From Bradyrhizobiaceae bacterium (GTDB taxonomy: Bacteria > Bacteroidota > Ignavibacteria > Kapaibacteriales > Kapaibacteriaceae), in assembly GCA_024103135.1 (NCBI GenBank), contig JAGFIZ010000137.1, positions 58,241 to 122,240 of the forward strand: a DNA stretch of 64,000 nucleotides. Direction: 5' to 3'. The first letter of the stretch is position 1; every line of letters begins with the position of its first letter. The notes under the pieces were generated by a model that worked only from the letters and a program-made list of their open reading frames with translations, ran no database searches and was not told where the DNA came from. This document shows positions 369-62,596 of the stretch, piece after piece. The position numbers were made by a program, and so were the translations under genes.

Positions 369-2137
369 ACCTTCATCGGCATATCGGCCTTTGTGCAGTC
401 ATCATAGCATTGTTGAGTGCATCGGTGAGCATCAACGCGCAGCAGCGCGATCAGGAGCGTATGGCCGTTACCTACGAACAAGGTGGCGATGCACGCAGTG
501 CAGCGAGGATCTATCTCGAGTTGTTGCAAGGACAGCCCGACAACCGTCGGTACTTCGAAGGCGTTGTTCGCACACTGAACGCGTTGACGCAGTATGAAAG
601 TTTGTTGCCAATAATTGATGACTATGCCAATCGACACCCATCACTAGAAGTCTTTCTGCTCGGAGGCGTCACCGCATCCAAGGCCGGCAAACCGAGTGAT
701 CCCTATTGGGAGTCAGCAGAAAAACTTGCACACGGTTCGGCCGAATCATACGCCGCCATTGCCAGGGCACAGGCCTCCGTGTTACAGTCAGCGAAGGCCG
801 TGGTATTGTTCGAAAGGGCCAGGCAACTAAGCGGTCAGCAGAGCATGTTTGCCTCCGATCTTGGCAGACTGTATTCATCACTCGGCAACTACGACCGGGC
901 AGTACAGGAGATTTTCAAGCAATACACCATGGATGGCAATGAGCAAGGTGCCAAGGGCTTGCTTGCGGCATTGATGGCAACACCAGAAGGCACAAAGTCT
1001 GTTGAGAGGGGGCTAGATTCTCTTGCTGATGATACGGACATCCTCCGGCTGCGATGGTGGTTTCTCACTCAGGTACATCGCTGGCCAGAAGCCTACACAG
1101 TAGTTCAGCAGTTAGATAACATCGAGAATCAGCGAGGTCGGTTAATCTTGAACTTCGCAGAGACCGCTCGTATGGAGCAGGAATACGCTGTTGCACTCAA
1201 GGCCTTCGAATCACTGCTCAACAGCACCGGAAGTACTTCTGTTGCTGCGTCGTATGGCTATACGGCTACGCTTGAAGAACAGATGGCGGCAACCGGACAC
1301 CTGTCAGTAGATGATGCTCGAACGATCTACACTCGTTATCGTGACATCGCGCGAACCCATGCACAGAATCCACTTGCAGCCGATGCCATGTTACGAATGG
1401 CTACGTTGCAGGTGGAATACCTTGCCGACACATCCGAAGCAGTCGGCATTCTTACTGCCCTCATCAGTAAGTGGGGTGGAACGCGAAGTGCGATCGAAGG
1501 TAGCTTGTTGCTTGCCGATCTCTACTATGCCAGAGGTATGGAAAAGCAAGCTCAGGAGTCGCTCGCATCTGTTGTCAAAACGTCCACTCCCCTCTCGGCC
1601 ATCGCAGAACTCAAGCTAACCGATTACAAACTGTACAACCAGCAGCTAGCAGAAGCCAAGTCGGAGTACTTGAGAATCAGTGCTGACCCTGCCTCGCCCG
1701 CTGCCAATGATGCGTTGGATCGTCTAGGATTGTTAATGTTGCTTTCCGAAGACAGTAGTGGGGTGGCTGATTTTGTTCGATGTATGAAACTTCAGGCGCA
1801 AGGTAACCGTCTGGGGGCGGCTCGAGCATATCAACATACGGCCGAGATTGCAACGGATCCCGACTTGCAAGACAGAGCACATCTGGAATCGGCGTTGATG
1901 TACTTCGAACTCCGCAATGCAGGAGAGGCCCTTGCCCAGCTTTCACCCGTGTTGCAGAAGATACCCGACAGTCCCATCGGTGACAGAGCATTGCTTCTTG
2001 TTGCCAACATGAAGGAATATGAAGGTGATAAGCAAGGCGCTATCACAGCACTATCAACACTTTTAGCACAATATCCACGAAGCATACTGACCCCTTCCTG
2101 TAGAGAACGAATTCGACGGTTAAGGGGCGACGTATAA
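356..2137 (+). CDS. Exported tetratricopeptide-repeat protein
   Basis: 593 residues from a GTG start that overlaps the preceding peptidase gene by 13 bases. The N-terminus has a basic segment and a hydrophobic stretch (about residues 10-28) ending near SINAQ, typical of a cleavable signal peptide, so the mature protein should be periplasmic or surface-associated. The rest is almost all alpha-helical with repeated A-x-x-Y/L-x-x-x-L patterns typical of TPR-like solenoids, including blocks ending in NYDRAVQEI-like and GDKQGAITAL-like helices. No catalytic motif is visible. Such proteins usually act as scaffolds in envelope complexes; the partner is unknown. It lies 21 bases before the oligoendopeptidase gene and probably shares its transcript. 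Confidence 0.75.
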   Translation: MGTINLHRHIGLCAVIIALLSASVSINAQQRDQERMAVTYEQGGDARSAARIYLELLQGQPDNRRYFEGVVRTLNALTQYESLLPIIDDYANRHPSLEVFLLGGVTASKAGKPSDPYWESAEKLAHGSAESYAAIARAQASVLQSAKAVVLFERARQLSGQQSMFASDLGRLYSSLGNYDRAVQEIFKQYTMDGNEQGAKGLLAALMATPEGTKSVERGLDSLADDTDILRLRWWFLTQVHRWPEAYTVVQQLDNIENQRGRLILNFAETARMEQEYAVALKAFESLLNSTGSTSVAASYGYTATLEEQMAATGHLSVDDARTIYTRYRDIARTHAQNPLAADAMLRMATLQVEYLADTSEAVGILTALISKWGGTRSAIEGSLLLADLYYARGMEKQAQESLASVVKTSTPLSAIAELKLTDYKLYNQQLAEAKSEYLRISADPASPAANDALDRLGLLMLLSEDSSGVADFVRCMKLQAQGNRLGAARAYQHTAEIATDPDLQDRAHLESALMYFELRNAGEALAQLSPVLQKIPDSPIGDRALLLVANMKEYEGDKQGAITALSTLLAQYPRSILTPSCRERIRRLRGDV

Positions 2138-2158
2138 CGTATTGACATTAGGAGTTAC

Positions 2159-3862
2159 ATGGCAGAGACCGTATTTGCAGAGTTAGCGTACCAACGACCT
2201 GACGTTGCACAAACACAACAGAGACTTACTCACATTACAGATAGTATCAAGTCCAGTTCCAGTGCACAGAACACGATTGACGTGATCAATGCCTGGAACG
2301 ACTTGCGATCCCACCTTGGAACCATGCAGGGATTGGCAGAGGTACGGTTTACGCAGGACGTTTCCAATCCTGCATACAAGGAAGAGAAGGAGTTCTTCGA
2401 CCAAACCGGACCGACTGTCGGCGAGTACATGATGACGGTCAGCAAGGCCATCGTCGAAAGCCCCTTCAGAGCAGAGCTGGAAAAGCACTTCGGCTCGCTG
2501 TTCTTTACCCGACTAGAGGCAGGATTGAAGACGTTTACGCCAGAGATCAAGGAACTTCTCGTCCAAGAGGCCGCATTGCAAAATGAGTACAATGAACTCA
2601 CTGCCAAGGCCAGAATTGAACATGACGGCATGGTTTACAACCTAAGCACGATTGCCAAGGTTGCCGAGAGTTTGGATAGAGACGTCCGTAAAGAAGTAGC
2701 CAAGAAAATGTATCGTTTCTTAGGCGATAACGCCGAGGCATTTGACCGTATTTACGACAGTCTCGTGCAGATCAGGCATCAGAAGGCTCTGGCCCTTGGT
2801 TTCGCCAGCTTCACGGAAATGCGATATGTGGAGATGGGGCGTGTTGACTATAACGCCGCTGACGTGAGTGCATTCCGTCAGCAAGTCATCGACACGGTCG
2901 TCCCCCTCGTCAGCCAGCTCAGAGCAGCTCAAGCCAAGCGCATTGGCGTAGACCAGTTGTACGTCTGGGACGAAAAACTCCATTTCCCGGATGGGAATCC
3001 TGTTGCCCAAGGCGAGCATGACTACATCGTTGAAGCCGCCTCAAAGATGTATGCCGAGCTCTCACCTGAAACCCACGAGTTCTTCAACGTCATGCTTGAC
3101 CGTCAGTTGATGGACCTTAAGTCGAGGGATAACAAGGTCACTGGCGGCTATTGTACCAGCTTCCCAGAGTACCAGGTACCCTTCATCTTTGCAAACTTCA
3201 ACCAAACCTCACATGATGTTGAAGTTCTTACACACGAGGCAGGACATGCCTTCCAGTCATGGCGCTCACGCACCTACACCGTGCCAGAGTATCAATGGCC
3301 TACAACCGAGGCTTGTGAGATACACAGCATGTCCATGGAATACCTGACCTGGCCATGGATGCATCTCTTCTTTGGCGACCAAACTGAGAAGTTCAAGTTT
3401 TTCCACCTCCAGAGTGCCATCATTTTCTTGCCCTATGGGTGTTTAGTTGACGAGTTCCAGCATTGGGTGTACGCGAATCCCACGGCGACCCCGACGGAGC
3501 GGCATGCCACCTGGCGTCGATTGGAATCCGTGTACATGCCCTGGCGCTTACATGGTGAAATCCCAGAGTTTGACGAAGGCAGGCATTGGCAATTCCAGCG
3601 ACACATTTACGAAAGCCCCTTCTACTATATCGATTACACCCTAGCCAGTGCCTGTGCCATGCAATTCTGGGCCTGGTCGCAATCAGATCCCCAAAAGGCC
3701 TTTTCACAATACCTCAAAGTCTGTGACATTGGCGGAAGTATGCCATTTCTCGGCATAGTTCTTGCTGGTGGGTTACGGTCTCCGTTTGCCTCTGGAGTGA
3801 TATCTGAGGTTGTTGGGGATTGTTTTTCTTGGTTAAAAAGGGAGTATCCGTCATATTTTTGA
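2159..3862 (+). CDS. M3 family oligoendopeptidase
   Basis: 567 residues, a normal length for the PepF-like M3 oligoendopeptidases, cytoplasmic zinc enzymes that cut short peptides. The zinc motif H-E-A-G-H is at residues 359-363, and a Glu-rich helix about 25 residues later (TEACEIHSMSMEY) would supply the third zinc ligand. There is no signal peptide. The start is supported by AGGAG five bases before the ATG. It probably shares a transcript with the aminopeptidase and TPR genes, so the upstream part of this operon looks dedicated to peptide turnover. The substrate range cannot be read from sequence. Confidence 0.9.
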   Translation: MAETVFAELAYQRPDVAQTQQRLTHITDSIKSSSSAQNTIDVINAWNDLRSHLGTMQGLAEVRFTQDVSNPAYKEEKEFFDQTGPTVGEYMMTVSKAIVESPFRAELEKHFGSLFFTRLEAGLKTFTPEIKELLVQEAALQNEYNELTAKARIEHDGMVYNLSTIAKVAESLDRDVRKEVAKKMYRFLGDNAEAFDRIYDSLVQIRHQKALALGFASFTEMRYVEMGRVDYNAADVSAFRQQVIDTVVPLVSQLRAAQAKRIGVDQLYVWDEKLHFPDGNPVAQGEHDYIVEAASKMYAELSPETHEFFNVMLDRQLMDLKSRDNKVTGGYCTSFPEYQVPFIFANFNQTSHDVEVLTHEAGHAFQSWRSRTYTVPEYQWPTTEACEIHSMSMEYLTWPWMHLFFGDQTEKFKFFHLQSAIIFLPYGCLVDEFQHWVYANPTATPTERHATWRRLESVYMPWRLHGEIPEFDEGRHWQFQRHIYESPFYYIDYTLASACAMQFWAWSQSDPQKAFSQYLKVCDIGGSMPFLGIVLAGGLRSPFASGVISEVVGDCFSWLKREYPSYF

Positions 3863-8172: not shown

Positions 8173-11100
8173 ATGCTGAGACCCTACGTTTTATCGCTCC
8201 TAGTTCTTTGTTCAACACTGGTGACCGTTAGCACTCAGACGTCGGCACAGTCTGTAGTTGTCAGTGAGTATTTTAACAACCCTGGACCGTCGGCGGCTAA
8301 AGAGTGGACGGAATTGCTTGTCGTTGACGATGATGTGAATCTCGTTGGCTGGACAGTGTTTGACCACTCTAACTTCAATCCTACTCAAGGTCCAGTATTC
8401 CAGGACATCCCTCTGTTTCGGCATCTACGTGCAGGGACAATCATTGTCATTGATCACAGAACTGATACGCCTCCACAGCAAATTGATACGGTAGCCGACG
8501 ATGGCTTTCTTCTTCTTCGTCAGCTAGACAATCGTTTCTTCTCTCTCGGCGGTAATGGACTTGATGTAAGTCAGCCAGGTGAACTGATCATCATTCAGGA
8601 TAAGAACGGTAAGGCCGTCCATGCTTTAGGTCATTTTAATTCACAAGCGATTCAGCCAGCCGCCTACACTGACCTCACATGTCCGAAAACTGCATTCAAT
8701 TCAAAGTCCGACCTTAGCAATAATCACAGTAATCGTGTTACAGGAAGGTCGCTCGCTGCATACGGTGCTGGACTAGGTACTGATTCTACGAGTTACGGCC
8801 CAACGGTTATCACTGCACCACCAGAAGATCCAGGAACAGGACCGAGTAAGGGGCTCCCTAACCTGATCGATAATCCAAAGCGCCTTGCAAAGCGAACCAA
8901 TACCAACCAGTTGTTCTGGCGTGAACGTAGAGAACCGCAATGGAAGTCGGGTCCAACGCTAAACGTTAATTCATCTGACCCAACGAAGAACGTTCTCTCT
9001 TGGTCAGCACTAACCGACCCATATCCATCCGACGGTGCAACGGGCTACATGGTTCTGAGAGACACCACAGGGTTTGTACCTGCTTCGTTCCCTGGTGTTC
9101 ATGACGGCACCACATATAAGGTTGGTGACAAGATAGGATCGGCAACCGTACTCGCTCTCCAGTCGACTGCTACTGGTACGTCTTTCGAAGACAAGAGCGC
9201 GCCGTGCGGCTCGACGTTTACCTATCGTGTTTACGGCTACCGTTATAGTGCCGATGACATGATGCCTGCTTCGCAGACAGCAGACACAACAGCGCGTGGT
9301 CGTCAGTACAACGAGCAGTTTGCTCAAAGCGCGACAATCAGTAAACCCAAGCCCCCTACACCTGTCATTACAGCATCGCGGTTGGTAATCTGTCCTGGCG
9401 ATACGACGACGCTATCAACCACTGCAACTGCCGGTATTGAAAAGTACACGTGGCTGCGCAACGGTACTCCGATTGCCATTGGATTTACCACGCGTGGTGT
9501 TGTCTCGCAACCTGGGAAGTATCGGCTTGTTGTGACGGCTCCCGGAGGCTGCACAGCATCCAGCAATGAGATCGAGATTCTTCCACTTCCAGCCCCCAGT
9601 GTTTCGGTGACGCCAACAGGCATCCACACCATGTGTAAGGGCGACACTTTGTGGTTCACTGTGTCAACACCGGCTCCACAGTACGAACTGCTACGCAATA
9701 ATGTGGTGGTCACTACGCAGACGTCACGTCGGTTTGCACTTACCGAAGACGGAGTCTATGCTGTAAAGCTGAAAACAGGTACACAGTGCGACGGGATATC
9801 CGAAACCATTGCCGTCACCATTCAAGACATACGGTACCACCTTGAGCCGACCGTGCTTGACTTTGGCTCACTTGGCGAATGCCAGACATCAAGAACCATG
9901 ACGGCGGAGTTGGTGAATGACGGGAATACGGGCATCACCATATCCAGTGTGACCTTGCCGCCGGGGTATGCTTTAACGTCACCACCACCTGGATTTTCCG
10001 TAGAACCAGGAAAGCGCCAAACTCTTCAATTGTTGTTTTCACCAGCCTTGTCCGGGACGACGGCTGGTACGGCTCAGTTCAATGCAGAGCCATGTAATGT
10101 CTCCAGCACACTTGCACTAACAGGTGTGCGTACCGACGCTGCCGCGACACTCGACAAGGTGAATGTTGATTTTGGTGAGTTCTCTGCTTGTCCGGGTGCA
10201 TCGATTAACAAGATCACAACATTTGAAATCACGAATAGCGGCACGGCTGCCATTGTTGTTTCGCCTCCTGCTGTTGCTGCACCATTCTTCTGCTCGTTTG
10301 CCAAGGACACGTTACAGCCAGGTGAGCACGTAACGATAACCATTCGATACATTCCGTTTGGACCAGACCTTAATCGTGCAGTGACGCAAACAATTATGTT
10401 CCCATTCGTGGGGTCGGATTGCACCGATACCATTCGTGCAACGCTGCGTGCTGCGTCCTATCAACCACGGGTTCAGTTGCTTGCCGATACCATCCATTTG
10501 GGTAGTGGCCAAGGCTGTGCGGATACCCTACTCGGCTCATTGTCGATAACGAATACAGGCAATGTTGCTGTGACAATCCCTAACGTTACGTCATCGAACG
10601 TCTCCTATTCAGGTCTACCACTTGACTTGCCCGTTGGCCAAACCCGCTCGATCCCGTTCGCATTTGTGATGGGAGGGGGCTATGGTATGCATGAAGAAAC
10701 TGATACCGTCCTGCTGATGCCATGCGGAACGAAGGTGCCTGTTACCATCACGGGCTTGCTCCAGGGTACCGTGCTCTCTGCAGACCCACCATCACTGAAT
10801 CTTGGCGATGTGCTCCTGTGTGAGGGCAATCCAGTACGCACGATGTCAACGACCATTAAGTCATCGATTGTACTTGACGGTAGTTCCGTAAGGTCGGTTT
10901 CGTTAAATGCTCCGTTTACATCTTCGCTGACTGTCGGGACGGCTCTCAACGACACCTTGCCCATAACCATAACCTACTCGCCAGTCGCTCCCGGAATATC
11001 TACCGACACGATGATTGTTGTCCTTGAGCCTTGCGGTGACTCTCTGCTCATTCCGCTAACGGCTTCGGCTGCCTCGGTGACCCGGAGCACGATTATCAGT

Positions 11101-12135
11101 AATCCAGACTTTGGAACATTGTCGACCGGCACATCAGCTGCACAGACATTAGTCATTGAGAACACAGGAACATACCCCATATCAGTTGACAAGCTTGCAG
11201 GCATCAATCCTCCGTGGTCTGTCGTCTCCGAGGTACCCACCCTACCAGCATCCATAGCCCCCTCCGATTCCGTGGTGGTTACGTTGCAGTACACCTATCT
11301 TGGTCCGGATCGAGCTGACACAACGCTCTGCACGAGCATTGTTACGGCTGGTCCATGCAGGGACTCAATCTCCCTTCGCTTGTTTGGATCGACCAGGCCT
11401 GATACCGTCGTTCCAATTCCGGATCTTCGGTTAGTCGTGCCCGACAACCAGGTTGCAACCATTGGCAAGGATGTTCTGATTCCGTTACATCTTAAGATTC
11501 CAGGCGCAGACTCCACGCAGTCGTCCTTGACGTTGAAAGGTAAGGGTGTTACAGACCTTGCTGTTCAAATACAGTATAACCCGACGATGTTGTGGATCAA
11601 ATCCGTTGACAACACAAGAGGTACGGGCACTTCGGCTTCTGTTTCTGAGGTCACCCCAGGCGTAGCGCAACTTCGAATTCAGTCAAGTACGGAGATTATC
11701 GAGAGTGATTCGATCGTGATGGTACGAGCCTCGACCTATTTAGGAAATGCCATCTCCACTCCCCTCCACCTTGATTCGGTAAAGAGCAGTAGTACTGTGC
11801 AAGTCACCACTGATGATGGTGACCTTCGATTTATCGGTGAGTGCGCAGTAAGTACACAGGTAGTCGAGTTTGGCATCGCTCCACGCATTGACGTCGAAGG
11901 AATCAACGAGCAACAACGTACTGTCGTCTTGGGCGTAACCACGCTCTCGGATGAACCATTGGTTATCACCATTACCAACATCGAAGGTCAAGCCATTGAT
12001 CGTGTTGTGGCCAATCTACGTCCAGGCAAGCACCAGGTTCATGTAGATGTTAGCCGCTGGCCCTCTGGCTGGTATGGAGCCACGATGCAGCATGGATTGT
12101 ATGTTGGAACTACGGCATTCGTGGTGACCCACTAG
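8173..12135 (+). CDS. Secreted mosaic protein: LTD-like, ASH/Hydin repeats, cohesin-like, T9SS-type C-terminus
   Basis: About 1320 residues. The ATG at 8173 is chosen because the earlier in-frame ATG at 8140 lies inside a terminator hairpin, and because 8173 opens directly onto a signal peptide (MLRPYVLSLLVLCSTLV). Next comes a lamin-tail-like domain (VVVSEYFNNPG, EWTELLVV, NLVGWTVFDHS), a fibronectin-like stretch and Ig-like segments. Five repeats of about 110 residues then follow, each beginning with an LDFGSLGEC-type motif, as in ASH/Hydin (choice-of-anchor D) domains. A cohesin-like region follows (DVLIPLHLKI, QIQYNPTMLWI). The C-terminus, with WPSGWYGA near the end, resembles a T9SS sorting domain. 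It is probably a surface adhesin or matrix protein; no enzymatic motif is visible. Confidence 0.82.
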   Translation: MLRPYVLSLLVLCSTLVTVSTQTSAQSVVVSEYFNNPGPSAAKEWTELLVVDDDVNLVGWTVFDHSNFNPTQGPVFQDIPLFRHLRAGTIIVIDHRTDTPPQQIDTVADDGFLLLRQLDNRFFSLGGNGLDVSQPGELIIIQDKNGKAVHALGHFNSQAIQPAAYTDLTCPKTAFNSKSDLSNNHSNRVTGRSLAAYGAGLGTDSTSYGPTVITAPPEDPGTGPSKGLPNLIDNPKRLAKRTNTNQLFWRERREPQWKSGPTLNVNSSDPTKNVLSWSALTDPYPSDGATGYMVLRDTTGFVPASFPGVHDGTTYKVGDKIGSATVLALQSTATGTSFEDKSAPCGSTFTYRVYGYRYSADDMMPASQTADTTARGRQYNEQFAQSATISKPKPPTPVITASRLVICPGDTTTLSTTATAGIEKYTWLRNGTPIAIGFTTRGVVSQPGKYRLVVTAPGGCTASSNEIEILPLPAPSVSVTPTGIHTMCKGDTLWFTVSTPAPQYELLRNNVVVTTQTSRRFALTEDGVYAVKLKTGTQCDGISETIAVTIQDIRYHLEPTVLDFGSLGECQTSRTMTAELVNDGNTGITISSVTLPPGYALTSPPPGFSVEPGKRQTLQLLFSPALSGTTAGTAQFNAEPCNVSSTLALTGVRTDAAATLDKVNVDFGEFSACPGASINKITTFEITNSGTAAIVVSPPAVAAPFFCSFAKDTLQPGEHVTITIRYIPFGPDLNRAVTQTIMFPFVGSDCTDTIRATLRAASYQPRVQLLADTIHLGSGQGCADTLLGSLSITNTGNVAVTIPNVTSSNVSYSGLPLDLPVGQTRSIPFAFVMGGGYGMHEETDTVLLMPCGTKVPVTITGLLQGTVLSADPPSLNLGDVLLCEGNPVRTMSTTIKSSIVLDGSSVRSVSLNAPFTSSLTVGTALNDTLPITITYSPVAPGISTDTMIVVLEPCGDSLLIPLTASAASVTRSTIISNPDFGTLSTGTSAAQTLVIENTGTYPISVDKLAGINPPWSVVSEVPTLPASIAPSDSVVVTLQYTYLGPDRADTTLCTSIVTAGPCRDSISLRLFGSTRPDTVVPIPDLRLVVPDNQVATIGKDVLIPLHLKIPGADSTQSSLTLKGKGVTDLAVQIQYNPTMLWIKSVDNTRGTGTSASVSEVTPGVAQLRIQSSTEIIESDSIVMVRASTYLGNAISTPLHLDSVKSSSTVQVTTDDGDLRFIGECAVSTQVVEFGIAPRIDVEGINEQQRTVVLGVTTLSDEPLVITITNIEGQAIDRVVANLRPGKHQVHVDVSRWPSGWYGATMQHGLYVGTTAFVVTH

Positions 12136-17793: not shown

Positions 17794-19107
17794 TCACTCC
17801 GTCCACCTTTGAATGATCATCGACGGCTTCACTTCTGGTGAAGCCGTTTCTTTTTGTACGACACTATTCAGAACACACTTGGTAAGGGGCTCGAGGCAAT
17901 CGCGATTCGAGGCTGATATCGTTGCCAAACGCTCACCGGTGTTGATCCAGTCGCCAACGTGTTTGTGATAGACGATTCCAGCAAAGGGATCAATGACATC
18001 GGTCTCCTTCTTCCGTCCAGCTCCTGCATCAAGGAGTCCTTCAGCCGTAACCATTGCATCAATCGACGTTATAGTCCCGGATGACCTAGCAGTAACGTCA
18101 ACCGACGGACAAGCAGCAAATGCTTGTTCGCCTGCCTGATAGTCGCCGCCCTGACGACTGATCATGTGATGAAACTCTGCGTGAGCGCTACCACTGTCCC
18201 AGCATTCCACAACACGCGCGGTAGCTGATTCAATGTCAGCGTTGACGTTCGCCAATACAAGCATCTGCGCAACGAGTTCGATCGTAACCTCCTGGAGATC
18301 TGTGGCGCAGATTGACCGATTTGACAATGATCGTTCGGCTTCGGCTACCTCGACCCAGTTACCACAGGCATAACCCAGCGGTGCATCCATCCTGGTGAAC
18401 ACAACACTTACAGGGAGCCCTGCAAGCGCGGCTACAGAACGAATCGATGCGGCTAATGTCTCTGCCTGCTCAATGGTCTTCATAAAAGCTGCAGAACCAA
18501 CCTTGACGTCCATCACGAGCCCGTTGAGTCCTTCTGCCAACTTCTTCGACAGAATCGATGCTGATATGAGCCCTGTGTTCTCAACGGTCCCAGTCACATC
18601 TCGCAATGCATAGAGGATCCTGTCGGCAGGCGCCAGAGTTGCTGACTGTGCCGCCATAAACAGGCCGTAAGTCTCACGTAGTTGAGAGAGTTGGTCCATA
18701 GACAGCTGAAGGTTCATACCAGGAATGCTCTCCAACTTGTCAACGGTTCCCCCGGTGTGCCCAAGCCCCCTTCCGGAAATCATCGGAACGACCAATCCGC
18801 ATGCCCGTGCTAGTGGTGCAAGGAGCAGACTTACCTTGTCGCCTACTCCGCCTGTACTGTGTTTGTCGATAGTGTTCCTGGAGCCTTGCATCGGCTCCAG
18901 GCGTTCTCCACTTTCGGCCATTGCCAAGGTCAACGCAGCAGTTTCATCATCCGTTAGTCCATGGATGCATGCAGCCATCAAGAATGCGGCGGCTTGCGGT
19001 TCGCTTACCGATCCGTCACAAAGTCCGCGGACAAATGTGGCGATCTCCGAAGTACTCCATCGTCCGCCATCACGCTTGAATCGTAGAAGCTCCTTCGTGC
19101 TCTTCAT
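17794..19107 (-). CDS. Pyrimidine-nucleoside (thymidine) phosphorylase
   Basis: 437 residues, normal for this family, which splits pyrimidine nucleosides with phosphate into base and (deoxy)ribose-1-phosphate in the cytoplasm. The phosphate-binding block KHSTGGVGDK is at residues 82-91, followed by MISGRGLGHTGGTVDKLESI. The C-terminal domain ends in EVKPSMIIQRWTE, which resembles the usual end of the family, so the gene really does run through the terminator embedded in its last 60 bases. The start codon is 12 bases from the divergent methyltransferase gene, so its promoter must overlap that gene. Thymidine versus broad pyrimidine specificity (deoA or pdp) is not decided. Confidence 0.92.
   Translation of the reverse strand: MKSTKELLRFKRDGGRWSTSEIATFVRGLCDGSVSEPQAAAFLMAACIHGLTDDETAALTLAMAESGERLEPMQGSRNTIDKHSTGGVGDKVSLLLAPLARACGLVVPMISGRGLGHTGGTVDKLESIPGMNLQLSMDQLSQLRETYGLFMAAQSATLAPADRILYALRDVTGTVENTGLISASILSKKLAEGLNGLVMDVKVGSAAFMKTIEQAETLAASIRSVAALAGLPVSVVFTRMDAPLGYACGNWVEVAEAERSLSNRSICATDLQEVTIELVAQMLVLANVNADIESATARVVECWDSGSAHAEFHHMISRQGGDYQAGEQAFAACPSVDVTARSSGTITSIDAMVTAEGLLDAGAGRKKETDVIDPFAGIVYHKHVGDWINTGERLATISASNRDCLEPLTKCVLNSVVQKETASPEVKPSMIIQRWTE
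17823..17855 (+). terminator. Rho-independent terminator embedded in the opposing gene's coding end
   Basis: ACGGCTTCAC (17823-17832) pairs perfectly with GTGAAGCCGT (17838-17847) around a TTCTG loop, followed by TTTCTTTTT. It lies 47 bases after the thioredoxin-like gene stop and inside the last codons of the convergent phosphorylase gene. Confidence 0.88.
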
Positions 19108-19119
19108 AGCTTTGTATCA

Positions 19120-19887
19120 ATGCTTGAACATGATCATCGGTTGTCGCACAATCTACGCAACGATTTGCGCCAGCTTCATCGTAGCGTGCACAGAGAAAGT
19201 CAACGGCGATACCTCGCTGAGGGTACACATGTCTGCGCTGACCTTGCTGCTTCGGAACAGCGCGCTGATGTCGTGGTGCTGCGCGATGATGCATCGGCCG
19301 AAGACAGAGCCATCGCTAATGCTCTATGTTCGAAGGGGGCTGAGTTGCTGTTCTGTTCCGAGAAATCGATGGCAATGATCAGCACGACTAACGCTCCCCA
19401 ATCGATTGTTGCAAGAGTAGCATTCCACGAAGAGAAACAACCGGGTGATCGGCTGTTGTTGCTTGATGCTGTATCCGACCCAGGGAATGTGGGGACAATT
19501 ATCCGCTGTGCCTCGTGGTTTGGCTTTTCGGATGTTGTCCTAGGCGAAGGTTGTGCAGACTTGTATAACTCAAAGACCATTCGGTCATCAGCCGGTGCTT
19601 CGTTCAGGGTGAACGTATTACGTCATTGCAATCTTCCAGTGTTGCTTGATACTCTCCATGGGGTGACCGTTGTCGGTACTGTCCCACGTGGTGGCCAGCC
19701 CCCTACCATCCTTGCATCAGTTGAATGTCTTGCCTTGGTTATTGGCAGCGAAGCACATGGTATTTCTGACGAGGTTCTCAAACGGTGCTCCTGCAACGTT
19801 TCGATCCCAGGTGTGGGTGACACTGAATCACTGAATGCAGCGATGGCAGCAACGATTCTTGCGTACGAGGCAAGAGTGCAACGATGA
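19120..19887 (+). CDS. TrmH/SpoU family RNA 2'-O-methyltransferase
   Basis: 255 residues with the knotted SPOUT fold that uses S-adenosylmethionine to methylate a ribose 2'-OH in tRNA or rRNA. The family motifs are visible: motif 1 DPGNVGTIIRCA, motif 2 LVIGSEAHGIS, and motif 3 IPGVGDTESLNAAMAATI. The N-terminal ~90 residues resemble the substrate-binding domain of RlmB/TsnR-type enzymes (the RRYLAEGTH element), so rRNA is the more likely target. The stop overlaps the next start as ATGA. The target site cannot be named from sequence. Confidence 0.92.
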   Translation: MLEHDHRLSHNLRNDLRQLHRSVHRESQRRYLAEGTHVCADLAASEQRADVVVLRDDASAEDRAIANALCSKGAELLFCSEKSMAMISTTNAPQSIVARVAFHEEKQPGDRLLLLDAVSDPGNVGTIIRCASWFGFSDVVLGEGCADLYNSKTIRSSAGASFRVNVLRHCNLPVLLDTLHGVTVVGTVPRGGQPPTILASVECLALVIGSEAHGISDEVLKRCSCNVSIPGVGDTESLNAAMAATILAYEARVQR

Positions 19888-46716: not shown

Positions 46717-46779
46717 GGATGTCTATGTCTCGTTGTTTAATAGCGACTGATGGTAAGGGGCTTTGTAGTCGTTGCGTTG

Positions 46780-53583: not shown

Positions 53584-56155
53584 CCGTCTGCGTGTTATTG
53601 TCATTGCCGGACCTACAGCCGTCGGTAAAACAGCCCTTTCACTTGAACTAGCGAACCACCTCCCGCTCGAGATCGTCTGTGCCGACTCACGTCAGGTGTA
53701 CACGATGATGGACATAGGCACTGCAAAGCCAACCAAGGCAGAGATGGCAAGGTGTCGGCATCACCTGTTTGATGTGTACCACCCCAGTGTTACGTACAAT
53801 GCCGGTAAGTATGCCGAAGATGTCCGCAGAACACTTTCCAACAAGTTGGGTACCTTCGTACTCGTTGGTGGTTCTGGCTTGTACATCAATGCTGCATTGG
53901 ATGGGTTTTCGGTAGACGTAGCGGAGACGGACGAGAACATACGTTTGCGGATACGGGAGTTCTACCGGACGCATGGTCGCGAGGCACTCTATCAGTGGCT
54001 TGTGGATGTAGATCCTGTGGCGGCTGAACGGTATGCCGACAAGAACCCAAGACGGATTCAGAGGGCCCTTGAGTACTATGTGCAGCATGGCGTACCATTC
54101 TCGTCAACCTGGGCCAAGGCTCAAACTCCGCTTGAAGCGGAGGTACATCGATTTGTTGTAGACATGGACAGAGAAGAGTTAAACGTGAGAATAGAAGAAC
54201 GATGTGCGGCAATGTGGAATGAAGGTCTGTTGGAGGAAACACAGGCAATCCTTGCCGATGGCGTTGCGCCTGAGGCACAGAGTTTGCGTACGGTGGGATA
54301 CACGCAGGCTCTCGGCGCTCTTGGATATGGAACCCCACTGTCGATGTCCGAAGCACAGGAGCAACACGTAGTTGCGACAAAGCAGTACGTGAAGAGGCAG
54401 CGCACATGGTTCAGGAAGGATCCTCGCTTCCAACAGGTTACTCCGTCGAATGCACTCGACGCAATCATGCGGTCGCTTGCAGTACTCTTGATGTTCCTGG
54501 TGGGCGTTGCCGCTGGATCTGCAAAACAAGGCGTCGACACTGCAGCACTGAAGAGTCCACGCTCACCGATTATCTCACAGTATGACTCGGTTCAGGCAGT
54601 GGCCCGACTTGCTGGAAGAATTGACGAACTTCTGCGAAGTAAGGCCTATCGTAGTGCTAGCGTGAGTTGCAGGGTGTGGAATATGTCACGTAACAAGCTT
54701 GTGTATGATTTGGCTGGCGACCTCTGCCTTACGCCAGCTAGCACAACCAAGTTGTTCAGCACTGCAGCAGCATTTCACGCCTTAGGCGAAAAGGGCGCAC
54801 TCACGACCGAGGTACGTGCAACGGGAAGAATTCTCAACGACGGTTCGCTGGAGGGCGACCTCTACCTCGTTGGGATGGGCGATGCAATGCTTTCGGTGAA
54901 TGATCTTGAGCGCATGGCCGACGAGTTGTACAGAATGGGCATCAGAAGAGTGCGTGGTTCCATTTATGGCGATGGATCATTCTTTGATAACATCGGAAAT
55001 CGAGCTGTGTACAGCGGCGATAACGAAGAAGTCCAACCATTGCCAGCCGTACGAGCTCTGAGCGTGAATGAAAGTAGTTTCTCAGTGATCGTGTCCGCAA
55101 CCCGTGCTGGTCGAGTATCGGCTCAGACGATACCAGCCTGCGAGTCCGTTGTCATCAATCTCGTTTCGTCAGCCCCCTCACCGAAACGAAGAAGGAGAGG
55201 TCGTTCACGTTGCACCGTAAGCTCGACGTACTCTGCAAAGGATAATGTCCAGTACATAACCGTTGCAGGATCGCCAGGCGCAAATCGTACACGGTCGTTC
55301 TCCGTCCCTATGGCAGAGCCATCGTTAATGTGTGCCGGCATTTTTGCCAGCCGACTTCGGGCGGGTGGAATCAGTGTTGACGGTAAGGTAGGCACTCGAC
55401 GTTATGCTGCCGAGAGCAGGGTTCTTGTCAAGACAAGCAGGTCGTTAACTGAGTTTTGTAGCGTTGTAAACAAACGCAGCCACAACTACTTTGCTGAGCA
55501 GATATTCAAAGTCGTTGGTGGACAGTACGGTGGTCGTACGAATACCGCTGCTACGGCTAAAGAGGAGATTCTGGCGACATTGGACTCATTAAAGGTGCCA
55601 CGACGGGGAGCGGTGTTCAATGACGGAAGCGGATTGAGCCGACGTAACCGAGTGTGCGCTGCTACACAGGTCGACCTGTTACGAGCTATTAACAATCGGT
55701 CGTATGGCGATGAATTCCGTTCTACACTGGCAATTGCAGCTGTTGATGGAACAATCCGTGGTCGGATGCACAACTCCCCTGCTGCAGGTAATGTTCACGC
55801 AAAGACCGGAACACTACGGAACGTGAGTGCTCTCTCGGGGTACGTGACAACGCTGGATGGCGAGCAGTGGTGCTTCTCGGTCATCAGCAATGGTCCTAGT
55901 CCGCGTACCTACAAATCGATTGAGAATCAGGTTGCCATTGCCTTGGCTGGCTTTTCCTATAGCGGTAAGCAGTGGACTCCTACCGCAAGTACAGCTGTAA
56001 AATCTGCTACGGATACGAGCAATGATGATGAGTTTGAAAACATCAGCGACGATACCGACAAGGATATTCTTGACACGCTACTCTTGTTGAAACATCCCAA
56101 GGATGTACCGAGTAGTGATCAACGCAAGCAGAAGCCCAAAAAGGTCGGCGAGTAA
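53573..56155 (+). CDS. MiaA tRNA dimethylallyltransferase fused in frame to PBP4-type D-Ala-D-Ala carboxypeptidase
   Basis: About 860 residues in one frame from the ATG at 53573. Residues 1-300 are a full MiaA: Walker A GPTAVGKT (13-20), ADSRQVYTMMDIGTAKP, GGSGLYINA and a final KRQRTWFRKD. MiaA puts an isopentenyl group on A37 of tRNAs. With no stop codon, the chain runs into a hydrophobic segment (about 300-316, RSLAVLLMFLVGVAAGSA), then a DacB/PBP4 serine peptidase with SxxK Ser390-Lys393 (ASTTKLF), SxN Ser636-Asn638 (RSHNYF) and KTG 744-746 (AKTGTL). PBP4 trims or cuts peptidoglycan in the periplasm. An in-frame ATG at 54467 (residue 299) could start PBP4 separately. Topology (MiaA in, PBP4 out) fits a real fusion. 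The last 78 bases overlap a convergent VanZ-like gene. Confidence 0.9.
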   Translation: MSADRLRVIVIAGPTAVGKTALSLELANHLPLEIVCADSRQVYTMMDIGTAKPTKAEMARCRHHLFDVYHPSVTYNAGKYAEDVRRTLSNKLGTFVLVGGSGLYINAALDGFSVDVAETDENIRLRIREFYRTHGREALYQWLVDVDPVAAERYADKNPRRIQRALEYYVQHGVPFSSTWAKAQTPLEAEVHRFVVDMDREELNVRIEERCAAMWNEGLLEETQAILADGVAPEAQSLRTVGYTQALGALGYGTPLSMSEAQEQHVVATKQYVKRQRTWFRKDPRFQQVTPSNALDAIMRSLAVLLMFLVGVAAGSAKQGVDTAALKSPRSPIISQYDSVQAVARLAGRIDELLRSKAYRSASVSCRVWNMSRNKLVYDLAGDLCLTPASTTKLFSTAAAFHALGEKGALTTEVRATGRILNDGSLEGDLYLVGMGDAMLSVNDLERMADELYRMGIRRVRGSIYGDGSFFDNIGNRAVYSGDNEEVQPLPAVRALSVNESSFSVIVSATRAGRVSAQTIPACESVVINLVSSAPSPKRRRRGRSRCTVSSTYSAKDNVQYITVAGSPGANRTRSFSVPMAEPSLMCAGIFASRLRAGGISVDGKVGTRRYAAESRVLVKTSRSLTEFCSVVNKRSHNYFAEQIFKVVGGQYGGRTNTAATAKEEILATLDSLKVPRRGAVFNDGSGLSRRNRVCAATQVDLLRAINNRSYGDEFRSTLAIAAVDGTIRGRMHNSPAAGNVHAKTGTLRNVSALSGYVTTLDGEQWCFSVISNGPSPRTYKSIENQVAIALAGFSYSGKQWTPTASTAVKSATDTSNDDEFENISDDTDKDILDTLLLLKHPKDVPSSDQRKQKPKKVGE

Positions 56156-57964: not shown

Positions 57965-58447
57965 ATGGTGCGATTGTTCTTCTTGATACTCTGTGTGTTT
58001 ACCGTCTCGTGTGGCGGTCTAGACCCGGAAAGCCTTCCTCAAACTGCAACGGTTTCGGGGACGGTAGTCATTGTGGGCGGACGTACCGCTTGGCCTGACA
58101 GCGTACTAGAAATGCGTGTGGTACTATTCGATCAAAAGCCTTCGGCACCAGACTCGGTCATCGCTGCCATTGTAGGTAACAAGGCAGCCTATACCGACAC
58201 TCTTCCTCGATTCGTTGATAGTTGCACCTATTCCATCGCAATTTCCAAGCCCCCTCACACCTTCACCTATGCCGTGGTTGCAGGGCGTACCGGACCGAAC
58301 CTCCTGAAGGACTGGACCATGCTTGCACTGCATACAGAAGAGAGTACTCCATCGGTTCCAGCAACCGTGGTTGTAATGGAAGGGGCTCAGGTAGTCGTGG
58401 ACTTCAACGTTGATTTCGCTCATTTGCCCGAGCAGCCATTCCAATGA
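57965..58447 (+). CDS. Small lipoprotein upstream of a TonB receptor
   Basis: 160 residues from the ATG at 57965; an in-frame TTG at 57950 would add five residues. MVRLFFLILCVFTVSC ends in a lipobox. The mature part is beta-rich with a TATVSGTVVIVGG start, reminiscent of a small carboxypeptidase-regulatory-like domain. The stop overlaps the TonB receptor's start as ATGA (58444-58447), so it is probably a partner in substrate capture at the outer membrane. No family is recognised. Confidence 0.78.
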   Translation: MVRLFFLILCVFTVSCGGLDPESLPQTATVSGTVVIVGGRTAWPDSVLEMRVVLFDQKPSAPDSVIAAIVGNKAAYTDTLPRFVDSCTYSIAISKPPHTFTYAVVAGRTGPNLLKDWTMLALHTEESTPSVPATVVVMEGAQVVVDFNVDFAHLPEQPFQ

Positions 58448-60675
58448 CCATGCTGCACCATTCGGTTATCATGAAGCTCAGCATCCGTACGATGGTGGTT
58501 GTTGCGCTGTTCTGTTGTGTTGCTGCGACCGTGAAGCTTGTGGCTTCTGACGTGCGTGGTCTGATCACCGATAGGAAATCGGGTGATCCAGTAAGTGGCG
58601 TGACAGTGAGACTGGCCACTACGAGACTCGGTGCTGTTTCTGATAGCGCTGGTCGGTTTGTCATCAAGAACGTCCCTAAAGGAACGCATACCATTGAGTT
58701 CAACCGCATCGGGTATCGTCCAACGAAAATTGTTGCCACCATCAGACTAGATCAGGAAGATGTTGTGTGCACCCTGTTGCCAACGGACCTGCAGGTGCAG
58801 GACGTCATTGTCTCGGCTAACAGGCGCGTGCAGGCCGTACAGGACGTTCCGATCAGCGTGAGTACCGTTAGTGCAGTCGACCTCGATCAAAGAAACATTA
58901 CCCGGCTGGATGATGCTCTTCGATATGTCAGCGGCGTTACCGTTGTCAAGGATCAAGTGAACATCCGAGGCAGTAGTGGCTTTGCCCTTGGTGTTGGCAA
59001 TAGAGCAATGGTGCTGATTGATGGGTTTCCGTTGATGTCTGGTGATAATGGCGATATCAAGTTTGACGTATTACCCGTAACCGACATTGAACACATCGAG
59101 GTGATCAAGGGGGCAGGCAGTGCACTCTACGGAACTGGTGCCTTGGGTGGTGTTGTCTCTCTGTTTACAAAGAAGGTTACCGACCAAGCCGACATGTCGG
59201 CTCGTGTTTACCTTGGTGGCTATACGCTTCCTCGGTATGCTTCGTGGAGATACTCCGAATCCATACCGATTCAGGGCGGTGCCGATGTTCGTTATGCCAA
59301 ACGCTTTGGTGATGTTACCATCAGTGCCAGCGCTGGAATCCGAACGGATCAGAGTTATCGTGACTTCGATGCATCTACCCGTGGCGTACTCTTTGCAAAG
59401 GGAACCTGGCACATGAGCGATGTCTCTCAGCTTACCCTGTTCGGACTGTATGCCCTACACGTTGGTGAGAATTTTTTGTATTGGCAAGACTTGCAGCATG
59501 CCACGCGTCCACCAACAAGCCAGGATCCCGATCAGATGCTTCAAAGCGAGAAAGCTGCATCTGCCCTTGAATGGCAGTGGATTGCGGACAACCACACGTC
59601 CGTCATCGTGCGTACGGGACTGTTCAGAACCCACTTCGAAAACACGCTCAACAACGTTACGCTCGACAGCAATACAAGCACTGCCTATGCTTGGAATACT
59701 GACGTAATGGTCACCTCCTCACTCTCCAATGCTTTTACACTTACAGCCGGGATGAATGGCAGAGTGAATTCCGTATCGGCAGATATCTATGGAAGTCAGC
59801 TTCAGACAATCGGCTCCTTGTTTGCGCAAGGTGAGTATGCATTTCCAAGCGGACCAATTGTCACTGCCGGACTTAGAGTAGATCACGAAAAAACAGCATC
59901 GCTTTCTCCTCACCTTGAGTACAGTCCCAAGCTCGGGATGTCTTGGGCATTATCACCAACAACAACCGTCCGTGCCAGTGTTGGACGAGGGTTTCGTGCC
60001 CCTGCCATTGCCGAGCGGTATGCAAAGATTCGTTATGGTCCATTTCAGGTTAGGCCCAACCCTGATCTGCTGGCAGAAAGTTCATGGTCGTACGAGGCCG
60101 GCATTCATTGGACGCCAGCCGATGTTGCGATACCGATCGACCTCGACCTAGCGGTATTCAACAATGAACTGTTTAATCTGATTGAGCCCCGTTTCGACGT
60201 CAACGATCCCAACGTACCCATTGTCTTCCTTAACATCACACGGGCACGCATCATTGGAACGGAGCTCACGGTTAAGTCTGCCCTATCCAAAGCCCTCATG
60301 TTCGAGAGTGGACTAACGCTCATGCTGCCTCGTGACCTTGTACTCAACCAGACGCTGAAGTATCGCAACAATGTGTTGTGGTATTCACGATGCATCGTCA
60401 AACCGGTCGACCCGCTTTCCTTGCAGGTTGAGTATCGCTTTCAGAACAGAGTCGAGAATATCGACAACAGTCTTGAAGCCTTCATTCCTGATGCCGACCA
60501 GCGTGTACCCTCGCACGTTGTTGATGTGCGTGCTTTCTGGACGTTTTCGACTCAGTCAGGTGCTGCTCTACAGCTTGGCATTATTGCCAAGAATGTGTTG
60601 GACTACTATTACACCGAGGCCGTTGCAAACCTTAGTCCTACACGCAGCATTGCACTACAGATAGAATATCGGTAA
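58444..60675 (+). CDS. TonB-dependent receptor
   Basis: 743 residues from an ATG that overlaps the lipoprotein stop; an alternative ATG at 58471 opens the signal peptide directly (MKLSIRTMVVVALFCC). A regulatory-like domain comes first (VRGLITDRKSGDPVSGVTV, GTHTIEFNRIGY), then a plug (VNIRGSSGFALGVGNRAMVLIDG, KGAGSALYGTGALGGVVSLF) and a ~500-residue barrel ending in IALQIEYR. The GSALYGTGALGGVV plug is typical of siderophore or vitamin B12 receptors. Its N-terminal domain resembles that of the receptor at 23059. The stop abuts the convergent lptB gene. Confidence 0.94.
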   Translation: MTMLHHSVIMKLSIRTMVVVALFCCVAATVKLVASDVRGLITDRKSGDPVSGVTVRLATTRLGAVSDSAGRFVIKNVPKGTHTIEFNRIGYRPTKIVATIRLDQEDVVCTLLPTDLQVQDVIVSANRRVQAVQDVPISVSTVSAVDLDQRNITRLDDALRYVSGVTVVKDQVNIRGSSGFALGVGNRAMVLIDGFPLMSGDNGDIKFDVLPVTDIEHIEVIKGAGSALYGTGALGGVVSLFTKKVTDQADMSARVYLGGYTLPRYASWRYSESIPIQGGADVRYAKRFGDVTISASAGIRTDQSYRDFDASTRGVLFAKGTWHMSDVSQLTLFGLYALHVGENFLYWQDLQHATRPPTSQDPDQMLQSEKAASALEWQWIADNHTSVIVRTGLFRTHFENTLNNVTLDSNTSTAYAWNTDVMVTSSLSNAFTLTAGMNGRVNSVSADIYGSQLQTIGSLFAQGEYAFPSGPIVTAGLRVDHEKTASLSPHLEYSPKLGMSWALSPTTTVRASVGRGFRAPAIAERYAKIRYGPFQVRPNPDLLAESSWSYEAGIHWTPADVAIPIDLDLAVFNNELFNLIEPRFDVNDPNVPIVFLNITRARIIGTELTVKSALSKALMFESGLTLMLPRDLVLNQTLKYRNNVLWYSRCIVKPVDPLSLQVEYRFQNRVENIDNSLEAFIPDADQRVPSHVVDVRAFWTFSTQSGAALQLGIIAKNVLDYYYTEAVANLSPTRSIALQIEYR

Positions 60676-60680
60676 GGGGC

Positions 60681-61421
60681 TTAGTAGCGTTCGAGTGTAA
60701 AGTGTTCGCCAAGGTAGTGCTTGCGAACATCCGGATTTGAGGCCACCTCTTCAGCCGTACCACTGGTGAACATCGTACCATCGATCAAGATGTATGCTCG
60801 ATCGGTTATCGACAAGGTTTCGTGCACATTGTGGTCGGTAATCAACACGCCTAGCCCTCTATCCTTCAGCTTCTTCACGATGGTCATGATATCCTCGACT
60901 GCCAACGGATCTATCCCGGCAAATGGTTCATCCAAAAGGATAAACTGAGGATCGGTGGCAAGTGCCCGCGCAATTTCACAGCGTCGTCGCTCGCCCCCTG
61001 ACAGCATATACCCTTTGCTGTTGCGAATGTGCGTAAGACCAAATTCTTCGAGGAGCATGTCGCGCTTCTCGCGTCGCGCCGTACCCGACATTGACCGCAG
61101 CTGGAGGACGGCCATCAGGTTTTGAGCGACGGACAGTTGACGAAAAATGCTCGGCTCTTGTGGCAAATACGCAATCCCTTTTCGTGCACGCTTGTACATG
61201 GCCAACTTGGTGATCGCCGAGTCACCGAGCGTCACGACGCCACTATCGGGCCTAACCATTCCCACAATCATGTAGAAGGTCGTGGTCTTGCCTGCACCAT
61301 TAGGACCGAGCAGACCTACCACCTCGCCGGCTTCTACTTGTATGCTGCTTTGCTTCACAACAACACGTTTACCGTAGGTCTTGCGAAGACTATCAGCTCT
61401 GAGGATTGGTCTTGACGTCAA
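60681..61421 (-). CDS. lptB: LPS export ABC transporter ATP-binding protein
   Basis: 246 residues, the usual length for LptB, the cytoplasmic ATPase of the LptB2FG complex that extracts lipopolysaccharide from the inner membrane. Walker A is GPNGAGKTTTFYM near residue 40, the signature is LSGGERRRCEIARALA and Walker B is FILLDEPFAGIDPLAVEDI, followed by ITDHNV. The EPFAGIDP form is LptB-like. The start overlaps the HtrA stop by 4 bases. The window has no other lpt gene. Confidence 0.94.
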   Translation of the reverse strand: MTSRPILRADSLRKTYGKRVVVKQSSIQVEAGEVVGLLGPNGAGKTTTFYMIVGMVRPDSGVVTLGDSAITKLAMYKRARKGIAYLPQEPSIFRQLSVAQNLMAVLQLRSMSGTARREKRDMLLEEFGLTHIRNSKGYMLSGGERRRCEIARALATDPQFILLDEPFAGIDPLAVEDIMTIVKKLKDRGLGVLITDHNVHETLSITDRAYILIDGTMFTSGTAEEVASNPDVRKHYLGEHFTLERY

Positions 61422-62596
61422 TTTCTAACACCTTGTTTAGGGGGCTTGCGGAGCGTGAGTTTGAGGTCCTTTGTGGCCGATCCACGTTCGACGGTGACGG
61501 TGAGAACCTGCCCAACCTCACCATCGAGTATTGCAACATTAAGGTCGTCCATCCTTAGTACCTTCTCACCATCTATTGCAACAATAACATCTCCGGGTTC
61601 GAAACCTGCGTTGTCGGCCGGACTGTCGCCAGAAACGCGGGTAACGAGAATTCCATCGTCACGCGTAATGCCATAGTACTGAGCTGATTCTTCGTCGAGT
61701 GGTACGATTTTGATTCCTGTCCAGAATCCACGATCAATCTCGCCGCGTTGCTTGAGTTTGTCAACAATGGATCGAACACGATTCACGGGTATGGCAAAAC
61801 CAATGCCGATACTGCCTGCGCCACGGTTGTTCTGTGAGGTAGAATAGATCACGGTATTCATGCCAATCACCTCGCCGTCGGCGTTGACGAGCGGACCACC
61901 CGAATTGCCAGAAGAAATTGCCGCGTCAGTTTGAAGCATGTCGCGGTATACCCGCGACTCGCCTGTTTCGTCGGGCTGTGTGAAACTGACCCCTACATTG
62001 CTGATTACACCCACGGTCACCGTTGGCTTGGCATTGATGTCGAACAATCCGAAAGGATTCCCGAATGCGATAGCCCATTCACCAACACGAACGTGCTCGC
62101 TGTTGGCCAGCTTCAGGAATGGAAGCCCCTTGGCCTCGATCTTTAACAGGGCGACATCAGTTACCATGTCATGCCCGATGACCTTGGCATTGTGCTTTGA
62201 ACCATCCGTCATCGTAACCACGACCTTCGATGCATTGCCAGCTACGTGGTCATTGGTCAGGATGTAGCCATCTTCAGAAATGATGAAACCTGACCCCACC
62301 CCTTTTACTTCGTATTGCTGACGGTAACTGCGCCGTCCAAAGTAACGTTCAAAGAACGGATCGTCGAAGAATGAATAAGGGTTGCGGTATACCTGCTCTC
62401 GGATTTCCGTGACGTTAATGCCAACGATCGCCGGTGAACACTTGTCAACAGCCGTAGTTATCGCATTGGAACGTGACGTGCTTATACCATCGTCCCTACG
62501 CTCGGAAACGGTGTACACTGGCTTGTACTCCTTAGTACAAGCCACGAGCGGTGTAAACAACGAGAGAAGTACTGCTAGACGGAAGAATCGGGACAT
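61418..62596 (-). CDS. HtrA/DegP-like trypsin-fold protease, lipoprotein
   Basis: About 392 residues from the ATG at 62596, which directly opens a lipoprotein signal with Cys20 (SLFTPLVAC); an earlier in-frame start at 62641 adds 15 residues. The catalytic triad is His117 (LTNDHVAGN), Asp147 (VTDVALLKIEA) and Ser232 (SSGNSGGPLV). One PDZ domain follows (about 285-385, SPADNAGFEPGDVIVAIDGEKV). DegP-type proteases degrade or refold damaged envelope proteins. A lipid anchor is less usual than a soluble or single-helix form. Its coupling to lptB fits envelope maintenance. Confidence 0.93.
   Translation of the reverse strand: MSRFFRLAVLLSLFTPLVACTKEYKPVYTVSERRDDGISTSRSNAITTAVDKCSPAIVGINVTEIREQVYRNPYSFFDDPFFERYFGRRSYRQQYEVKGVGSGFIISEDGYILTNDHVAGNASKVVVTMTDGSKHNAKVIGHDMVTDVALLKIEAKGLPFLKLANSEHVRVGEWAIAFGNPFGLFDINAKPTVTVGVISNVGVSFTQPDETGESRVYRDMLQTDAAISSGNSGGPLVNADGEVIGMNTVIYSTSQNNRGAGSIGIGFAIPVNRVRSIVDKLKQRGEIDRGFWTGIKIVPLDEESAQYYGITRDDGILVTRVSGDSPADNAGFEPGDVIVAIDGEKVLRMDDLNVAILDGEVGQVLTVTVERGSATKDLKLTLRKPPKQGVRN

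Follow-up and report, generated by a model that had tools for sequence, protein, structure and literature searches.

What kind of signal is a short word that recurs, gene after gene, across a bacterial genome? The question is raised by a stretch of 64,000 nucleotides (hereafter the window; contig JAGFIZ010000137.1, positions 58,241 to 122,240, assembly GCA_024103135.1), from a bacterium named as Bradyrhizobiaceae that the Genome Taxonomy Database places in the Kapaibacteriaceae (Bacteroidota), through which the octamer AGCCCCCT/AGGGGGCT is scattered. An earlier note on the window assigned it to the signals that act as DNA and listed uptake sequences, Chi sites, HIP1-like repeats, FtsK-orienting polar sequences (KOPS) and methylation sites as candidates. 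Enrichment, codon phases and an intergenic excess all place it in that DNA-level class and not in protein coding. From the list, an uptake sequence fits best; HIP1-like repeats are palindromic octamers, whereas AGCCCCCT differs from its own reverse complement, and KOPS-like or Chi-like signals fit badly in polarity and spacing. We give an even chance to the reading that AGCCCC[CT]T serves in DNA uptake as a self-recognition sequence, which an import machine working without type IV pili would be expected to read in one direction.

The window holds exactly 21 copies of the octamer between 1007 and 61446 (15 on the + strand, 6 on the −), the number that the earlier note gave as a minimum. In 100 dinucleotide shuffles the mean is 0.86 and the maximum 4, and a second-order Markov model of the window expects 0.48. 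The window's own 7-mers, on the other hand, predict 20.7 copies, so that an excess over 7-mer composition, whose absence the note took as grounds for refutation, is by the letter missing; this is no evidence against the motif, because the motif itself makes most of these 7-mers (21 of 23 AGCCCCC and 21 of 27 GCCCCCT lie inside the octamer). Of the five-base runs of C or G, 21 of 44 fall within the motif, so that the note's "most" goes slightly too far. The 13 copies of AGCCCCTT in the window probably belong to the same signal, of which the octamer alone is then not the whole. Nor is enrichment limited to the window: the 2.71-Mb genome carries 884 copies of AGCCCCCT (450 + 434) versus 21 (9 + 12) of the reversed word. 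Against a third-order Markov background, a count that the note called for, AGCCCCCT is the most over-represented 8-mer in 352 kb of this genome (127 versus 4.0 expected), and AGCCCCTT is likewise enriched (52 versus 7.1).

The flanks are also biased, as had been noticed in the window. In four genomes of 45.7 to 60% GC (G000, G005, G002 and G006), the octamer is followed by C at +2 and mostly by C at +3, with the exception of the C form in G006, which has A there. It is preceded by A at −1 in 36 to 59% of sites, the T form of G000 excepted. The upstream C at −4/−3 described earlier is clear in G000 and G005 and differs in G002 and G006. The common word is approximately A-AGCCCC[CT]T-N-C-C, with a further upstream bias in the genus of the window. 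The C form (AGCCCCCT) and the T form (AGCCCCTT) are probably one signal, since pairs of unlike form within 1.5 kb avoid a shared orientation (76 same, 175 opposite) as strongly as pairs within each form (40:87 and 36:75).

The genome comparison covers 60 genomes, namely that of the window and 59 relatives, with 23 in the family and 37 in other families. The signal is abundant in 18 of the 23 (genera g1, g2 and g3), with 140 to 1293 copies of AGCCCCCT and 333 to 2275 of AGCCCCYT; the remaining five have only 15 to 130 AGCCCCCT copies, and none of the 37 genomes from other families reaches twice its control. AGCCCCYT occurs 2275 times in the 2.6 Mb of G002 (control 91) and 1871 times in G006 (control 82), while density varies about fivefold within g3, from 333 copies in 2.3 Mb (G021) to 1803 in 2.4 Mb (G012). 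A phylum sample of 198 genomes contains seven motif-rich members of the family, with 44 to 431 copies of AGCCCCCTNCC each; in each of the 189 genomes outside the family the word stays at background (at most 18 copies). The genomes of the nearest named loci, L001 and L002, carry no signal (85 versus 67 and 92 versus 66 in the reversed control), nor does a third, that of L003 (34 versus 94). In the comparison with relatives that the earlier note proposed, the signal is, among the genomes searched, confined to one family. A literature search, with most subscription journals outside its reach, found the motif named nowhere as a signal (a search by motif letters proves little) and turned up no uptake sequence established in Bacteroidota.

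The most unusual property of the signal is its avoidance of neighbours in the same orientation. Pooled over the four genomes, only 236 of 723 neighbouring AGCCCCYT sites are alike in orientation, including 54 of 173 in G000 (p 8.6e-7), 109 of 338 in G005 (p 6e-11) and 30 of 101 in G002 (p 5.5e-5), in tests that take pairs as independent; the spacing counts exclude four short contigs (L025, L144, L146 and L147). In the window, with both forms counted, the figure is 9 of 33. For same-orientation pairs the ratio of observed to expected counts is 0.27 up to 250 bases, 0.38 up to 500, 0.54 up to 1000, 0.66 up to 1500 and 0.81 up to 2000, and 0.93 to 1.04 beyond this, whereas opposite-orientation pairs stay at 0.98 to 1.21 and show no avoidance. 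Gaps between sites of a single orientation have a coefficient of variation of 0.57-0.81 versus 0.89-0.98 by chance, and the variance-to-mean ratio of site counts in ordinary 5-kb segments is 0.31-0.75 in four genomes. The avoidance within one orientation extends over about 2 kb in the genomes with a single core and over about 3-4 kb in the one with two cores (see below). In a control with 150 of 252 octamers, some of them parts of the motif or of a repeat array, the mean fraction of like neighbours is 0.58. Each motif form alone gives 0.38-0.40, which the next lowest of the other control octamers matches (0.40), so it is the two forms jointly that stand out, with 163 of 511 alike (0.32) in G000 and G005 combined. 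Such spacing per orientation suggests a reader that acts in one direction; one that threads DNA from the site, or reads a single strand, would produce it.

A second dialect comes from G009, of a fourth genus (g5), which is poor in AGCCCCCT and rich in GCCCCTT (71 versus 13.5 expected in 199 kb). This genome carries the core in tandem, as GCCCCYT-N1-6-GCCCCYT, in 460 copies (241 + 219); the reversed control has none, and the counts in 24 other genomes run from 0 to 3. The spacer is two bases long in 50 of 88 tandem pairs (637 kb), and in these 50 the second core is followed by N-C-C, at 64 and 72%, a tail shared with g1 and g2. Single core in g1-g3 and double core in g5 are dialects of a common core, as in known uptake sequences. 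Orientation matters here too: under a relaxed definition of the two-core site, 40 of 114 neighbours are alike (p 0.0019), and pairs closer than 3 kb are 6 same and 36 opposite. A third dialect was considered for CTTGCCGCC, which is enriched in G008, and was dropped because 22 of its 40 copies there lie in one sense codon phase (Leu-Ala-Ala) and adjacent copies show no alternation of orientation (13 of 24 pairs alike); the word is not enriched in 40 kb of G013. Another word, AGTGACAAGT, is also enriched in G008 (L050-L059), with 11 copies seen versus 0.19 expected.

A reader acting in one direction could also be a recombination enzyme. An AddAB-type helicase-nuclease, moving inward from a DNA end, would recognise the word on one strand and there change from degradation to recombination; this Chi-like function is the main rival, and an unlikely one. 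Orientation would naturally matter to it and the orientation-specific spacing would suit it, the word is non-palindromic, G-rich on one strand and present in hundreds of copies in ordinary genes, and an AddB-type (PF12705) protein is found in 28 of 28 genomes examined, although motif-free genomes are among them. The Chi octamer of Escherichia coli, GCTGGTGG, is likewise G-rich on one strand and direction-dependent (PMC8022716, in its available part). Replichore polarity, which the earlier note wished to see plotted, was measured in the single-contig genome G005 on 40 stretches of 20 kb (800 kb), where the G-rich strand of the motif lies 211 times on the leading and 167 times on the lagging strand (56 vs 44%, p 0.027). 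This slight leading-strand excess also goes in the direction expected of Chi; by our own estimate, GC skew itself might give a bias of about this size. By the same measure, the Chi sites in 400 kb of E. coli DNA are strongly polar (80 forward, 21 reverse) and not spaced, with a gap coefficient of variation of 1.06 versus 1.02 by chance and an excess of same-strand pairs under 250 bases (10 versus 4.3 expected). One Chi survey takes leading-strand polarity as a criterion, in the part of its text available (PMC8022716). The motif therefore differs in both polarity and spacing from the one Chi tested, and a Chi assignment is rejected on these grounds. The intergenic excess of sites also speaks against it, and a two-core dialect with spacers of 1-6 bases would be hard to reconcile with reading in a tunnel.

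The same weak polarity bears on the idea that the word marks direction for a motor or loop extruder working on the chromosome (SMC, FtsK or a nucleoid protein) and is spaced into chromosome units on each strand. Direction and even spacing, with the low variance of counts per segment, would be expected of such a marker. KOPS, however, have a strong replichore polarity, towards the terminus, which the motif does not show; KOPS are rejected on polarity and spacing like Chi. A fivefold variation of density inside one genus and presence in only part of one family also make a motor marker quite improbable. The lack of a strong chromosomal orientation bias in G005 is, in contrast, what is reported of known uptake sequences, along with an excess in non-coding DNA, in the available text of PMC1939737.

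The genes that contain the motif are unrelated in function and the encoded residues differ, as the earlier note had read in the window; sites occur in sense and antisense and in every codon phase on both strands. Intergenic sites number 154 of 779 where 107 are expected, a 1.44-fold enrichment with crude gene calls. An RNA-level element that terminates transcription or directs RNA processing, and of which every transcript on either strand would need one, could explain the strand-specific spacing and the greater share of antisense sites within genes (367 of 625). However, the avoidance is alike within one gene (53 same, 139 opposite) and between genes of opposite direction (15:30), as it is between codirectional genes (37:65) and where intergenic DNA is involved (47:103), and many sites (258 of 625) are sense sites inside coding regions. 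On this gene context RNA-level function is rejected and is hardly credible. Terminator hairpins are rejected as well, close inverted pairs being few (7 of the (+,-) type less than 60 bases apart in about 1.5 Mb).

Only marginally more probable than an RNA-level function is a role as a target of modification or restriction, or an origin as a side effect of mutational bias or codon usage. The word occupies every codon phase on both strands, unlike the codon-driven word of G008, which sits mostly in one, and composition alone would predict neither the orientation-specific spacing nor the retention of whole words between orthologues. Across eight aligned genes in up to nine motif-rich species, a site of one species is again a complete site in another in 36 of 306 cells, whereas control 8-mers taken 24 or 48 bases away are identical in 34 of 1188, the cells not being independent; per-base identity is no higher at sites (0.554 versus 0.586). 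Segments of unusual composition often carry fewer sites per 5 kb. This holds at low GC for G000 (1.57 versus 2.62, n=7), G005 (1.22 versus 2.46, n=9) and G002 (2.50 versus 4.00, n=2), the one low-GC segment of G006 having an ordinary count, and at high GC for G006 (0.33 versus 3.11, n=3) and slightly for G005 (2.00, n=11); high-GC segments of G000 (3.00, n=6) and G002 (5.50, n=2) have more. A stretch of G005 with 37-38% GC that carries metal-efflux genes (L034, C1:560001-580000) has one site in its first 18.9 kb. Its genes include CusA/B/C-type efflux components and a P-type ATPase, and PADLOC gave no match for the four L034 proteins tried.

Which machine could read such a tag? The receptor of the Neisseria uptake sequence is the type IV minor pilin ComP. 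Over 26 genomes, 23 of them of the family, the motor ATPase of type IV pili (T2SSE, PF00437, of PilB/PilT type) is over the cut-off in none, with four weak matches below it, while 13 of 14 controls pass; this search covered the motor ATPase, not the pilin and secretin families. The motif is not filed as a member of the known uptake sequences because the pilus motor that those systems need was sought and not found. ComEC is present in 21 and DprA in 22 of the 23 family genomes, and DUF5689 proteins, mostly of about 600 amino acids, in 20. When 16 DUF5689 loci are compared (14 from the family, 2 outside), 14 also encode a CarboxypepD_reg beta-barrel of about 1100 amino acids, interrupted by a contig end in two loci, and a DUF4397-type protein; neither was matched in the loci of G003 and G025. 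In 11 loci a NamZ/DUF1343 protein was also found, at a distance of about 5 to 8 kb. The DUF5689 protein also carries a DNase I-like domain (PF03372), and its predicted model (predicted local distance difference test score 80.9) has human DNase I as its best PDB match (E 6.3e-12). In L149, L150, L142, L151 and L152 this predicted secreted protein stands beside the beta-barrel and the DUF4397 protein. The locus, found in motif-rich and motif-poor members alike, is a candidate system for acquiring or scavenging DNA.

A parallel comes from Riemerella anatipestifer, whose transformation requires three proteins (RA0C_RS04915/RS04920/RS09020), one of the outer membrane with CarboxypepD_reg, the DUF5689 protein encoded beside it and one with DUF1343, and whose machinery is described as unlike known ones (PMC8459023, available text). 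In the family loci, too, a CarboxypepD_reg protein and DUF5689 are close together, with DUF1343/NamZ on one stretch of at most 20 kb. The Riemerella DUF5689 protein has a DUF5017 domain where the one here has a DNase I-like domain, and in the family a DUF4397 gene lies between barrel and DUF5689 (PMC8459023, in part). Riemerella columbina prefers its own DNA, with no convincing tag and only A-rich candidate k-mers, no motif like this one, in the part of the report available (PMC7965970).

Non-palindromic, dense, split into family dialects, weakly polar and in excess between genes, the signal resembles uptake sequences. Those of the Neisseriaceae (DNA uptake sequences, DUS) are also short words in hundreds to thousands of copies, with family dialects around a shared core (PMC3630211, available part). 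Uptake signal sequences (USS) of the Pasteurellaceae have a comparable density, no marked orientation bias and a non-coding excess (PMC1939737 and PMC2346458, available parts). The motif departs from known uptake sequences in having no pilus motor over the cut-off and a spacing that depends on orientation, and from DUS also in its sequence, in a dialect with two cores and a variable spacer, and in an uptake role that we infer. An even spacing of USS was asserted by Karlin et al., a claim that PMC1939737 cites; that paper, in the text available, finds the spacing too uneven for a role in compaction.

In the uptake reading, a receptor on the cell surface would recognise the site in a piece of DNA, and the flank to one side of the site would be threaded inward. 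A second nearby site in the same direction would then add little, while one in the opposite direction would serve the other side, and biased import with recombination would build up and keep the sites by molecular drive. The candidate machine is the operon encoding the CarboxypepD_reg/OMP_b-brl_4 barrel, the DUF4397 protein and the DUF5689 protein, whose DNase I-like domain may make the entry end beside the site; ComEC and DprA would act after these products.

Several observations weigh against this reading. The orientation effect is weaker in G006 (43 of 111 alike, p 0.022), not significant in a small g3 sample (17 of 44, p 0.17) and only a trend for strict two-core sites of G009 (34 of 84, p 0.10), and the weak polarity of G005 is nominally significant. 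Uptake by Haemophilus is reported to be independent of site orientation (PMC1939737, available part), whereas the spacing here depends on it, and known receptors are type IV pilins, as is predicted of the USS receptor, a minor pilin (PMC12616744, in part), yet no pilus motor passes the cut-off. The candidate genes occur in motif-poor genera too, and the DUF5689-nuclease protein may do no more than break down external DNA for nutrition. Motif-rich and motif-poor genomes are not told apart by whether they have ComEC, DprA, DUF5689 or PF12705. Trees built for the DUF5689 locus place the motif-poor genera together, along with the outgroup G030 in those trees that include it; several branches are weak, and the trees point to no reader. 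Since motif-poor genomes also have the locus, nothing ties the motif to a reader, and its link to the locus is conjectural.

Sites of both forms in the window are listed below.

Exact copies of the two forms of the signal in the 64-kb window
Feature	Position	Strand	Remark
AGCCCCCT site	1007..1014	-	exact match
AGCCCCTT form of same signal	2459..2466	+	exact match; forms equivalent by mutual spacing
AGCCCCTT form	3614..3621	+	
AGCCCCTT form	8848..8855	-	
AGCCCCCT site	9350..9357	+	
AGCCCCCT site	10674..10681	-	
AGCCCCCT site	11256..11263	+	
AGCCCCTT form	17884..17891	-	
AGCCCCCT site	18764..18771	+	
AGCCCCCT site	19334..19341	-	
AGCCCCCT site	19697..19704	+	
AGCCCCCT site	21845..21852	-	
AGCCCCCT site	23310..23317	+	
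AGCCCCCT site	28041..28048	+	
AGCCCCTT form	28257..28264	-	
AGCCCCCT site	31036..31043	+	
AGCCCCTT form	31294..31301	+	
AGCCCCCT site	32972..32979	-	
AGCCCCCT site	34009..34016	+	
AGCCCCCT site	39222..39229	+	
AGCCCCTT form	40091..40098	-	
AGCCCCCT site	42539..42546	+	
AGCCCCCT site	42897..42904	+	
AGCCCCTT form	46755..46762	-	
AGCCCCCT site	47659..47666	+	
AGCCCCCT site	49282..49289	+	
AGCCCCTT form	49392..49399	-	
AGCCCCCT site	55171..55178	+	
AGCCCCCT site	58248..58255	+	
AGCCCCTT form	58380..58387	-	
AGCCCCTT form	60674..60681	-	
AGCCCCCT site	61439..61446	-	
AGCCCCTT form	62124..62131	+	
AGCCCCTT form	63579..63586	-	

The window also contains a single open frame (53450-56155, +) with matches to MiaA (IPPT) and to S13 D-Ala-D-Ala carboxypeptidase, either a gene fusion or an assembly artefact. 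Repeats of other kinds occur in G005 and G000. A 20-kb stretch of G005 (L044, C1:1960001-1980000) holds a large CRISPR-like array with 159 repeat copies containing GATCTGCTCTAGTAGCCAATT and includes a 12.3-kb gap without the motif. A hairpin repeat around CAGTGCCGGGGTGTTCACACCCCGGCACTG, possibly a family like the repetitive extragenic palindromes (REP) or a repeat within a gene, occurs in at least nine copies in G000, at L014 (C5, about 55.8-59.1 kb) and L020 (C22, about 16.8-17.0 kb).

Uptake sequences are established in the Neisseriaceae and Pasteurellaceae. The Kapaibacteriaceae may have a self-recognition code of their own, in which one-way tags, evenly spaced on each strand and written in two dialects, would be read without a pilus, probably by the DUF5689/beta-barrel system; this full proposal is tentative and rather less probable than the uptake function itself, and would make the motif the first non-pilus and the first directional uptake sequence. 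As a quantitative property, the orientation-specific spacing hints at a directional reader, and the statistic can be applied to every uptake sequence and Chi site. With a clear tag, dialects and a candidate operon, the family makes the matching of receptor and tag directly testable.

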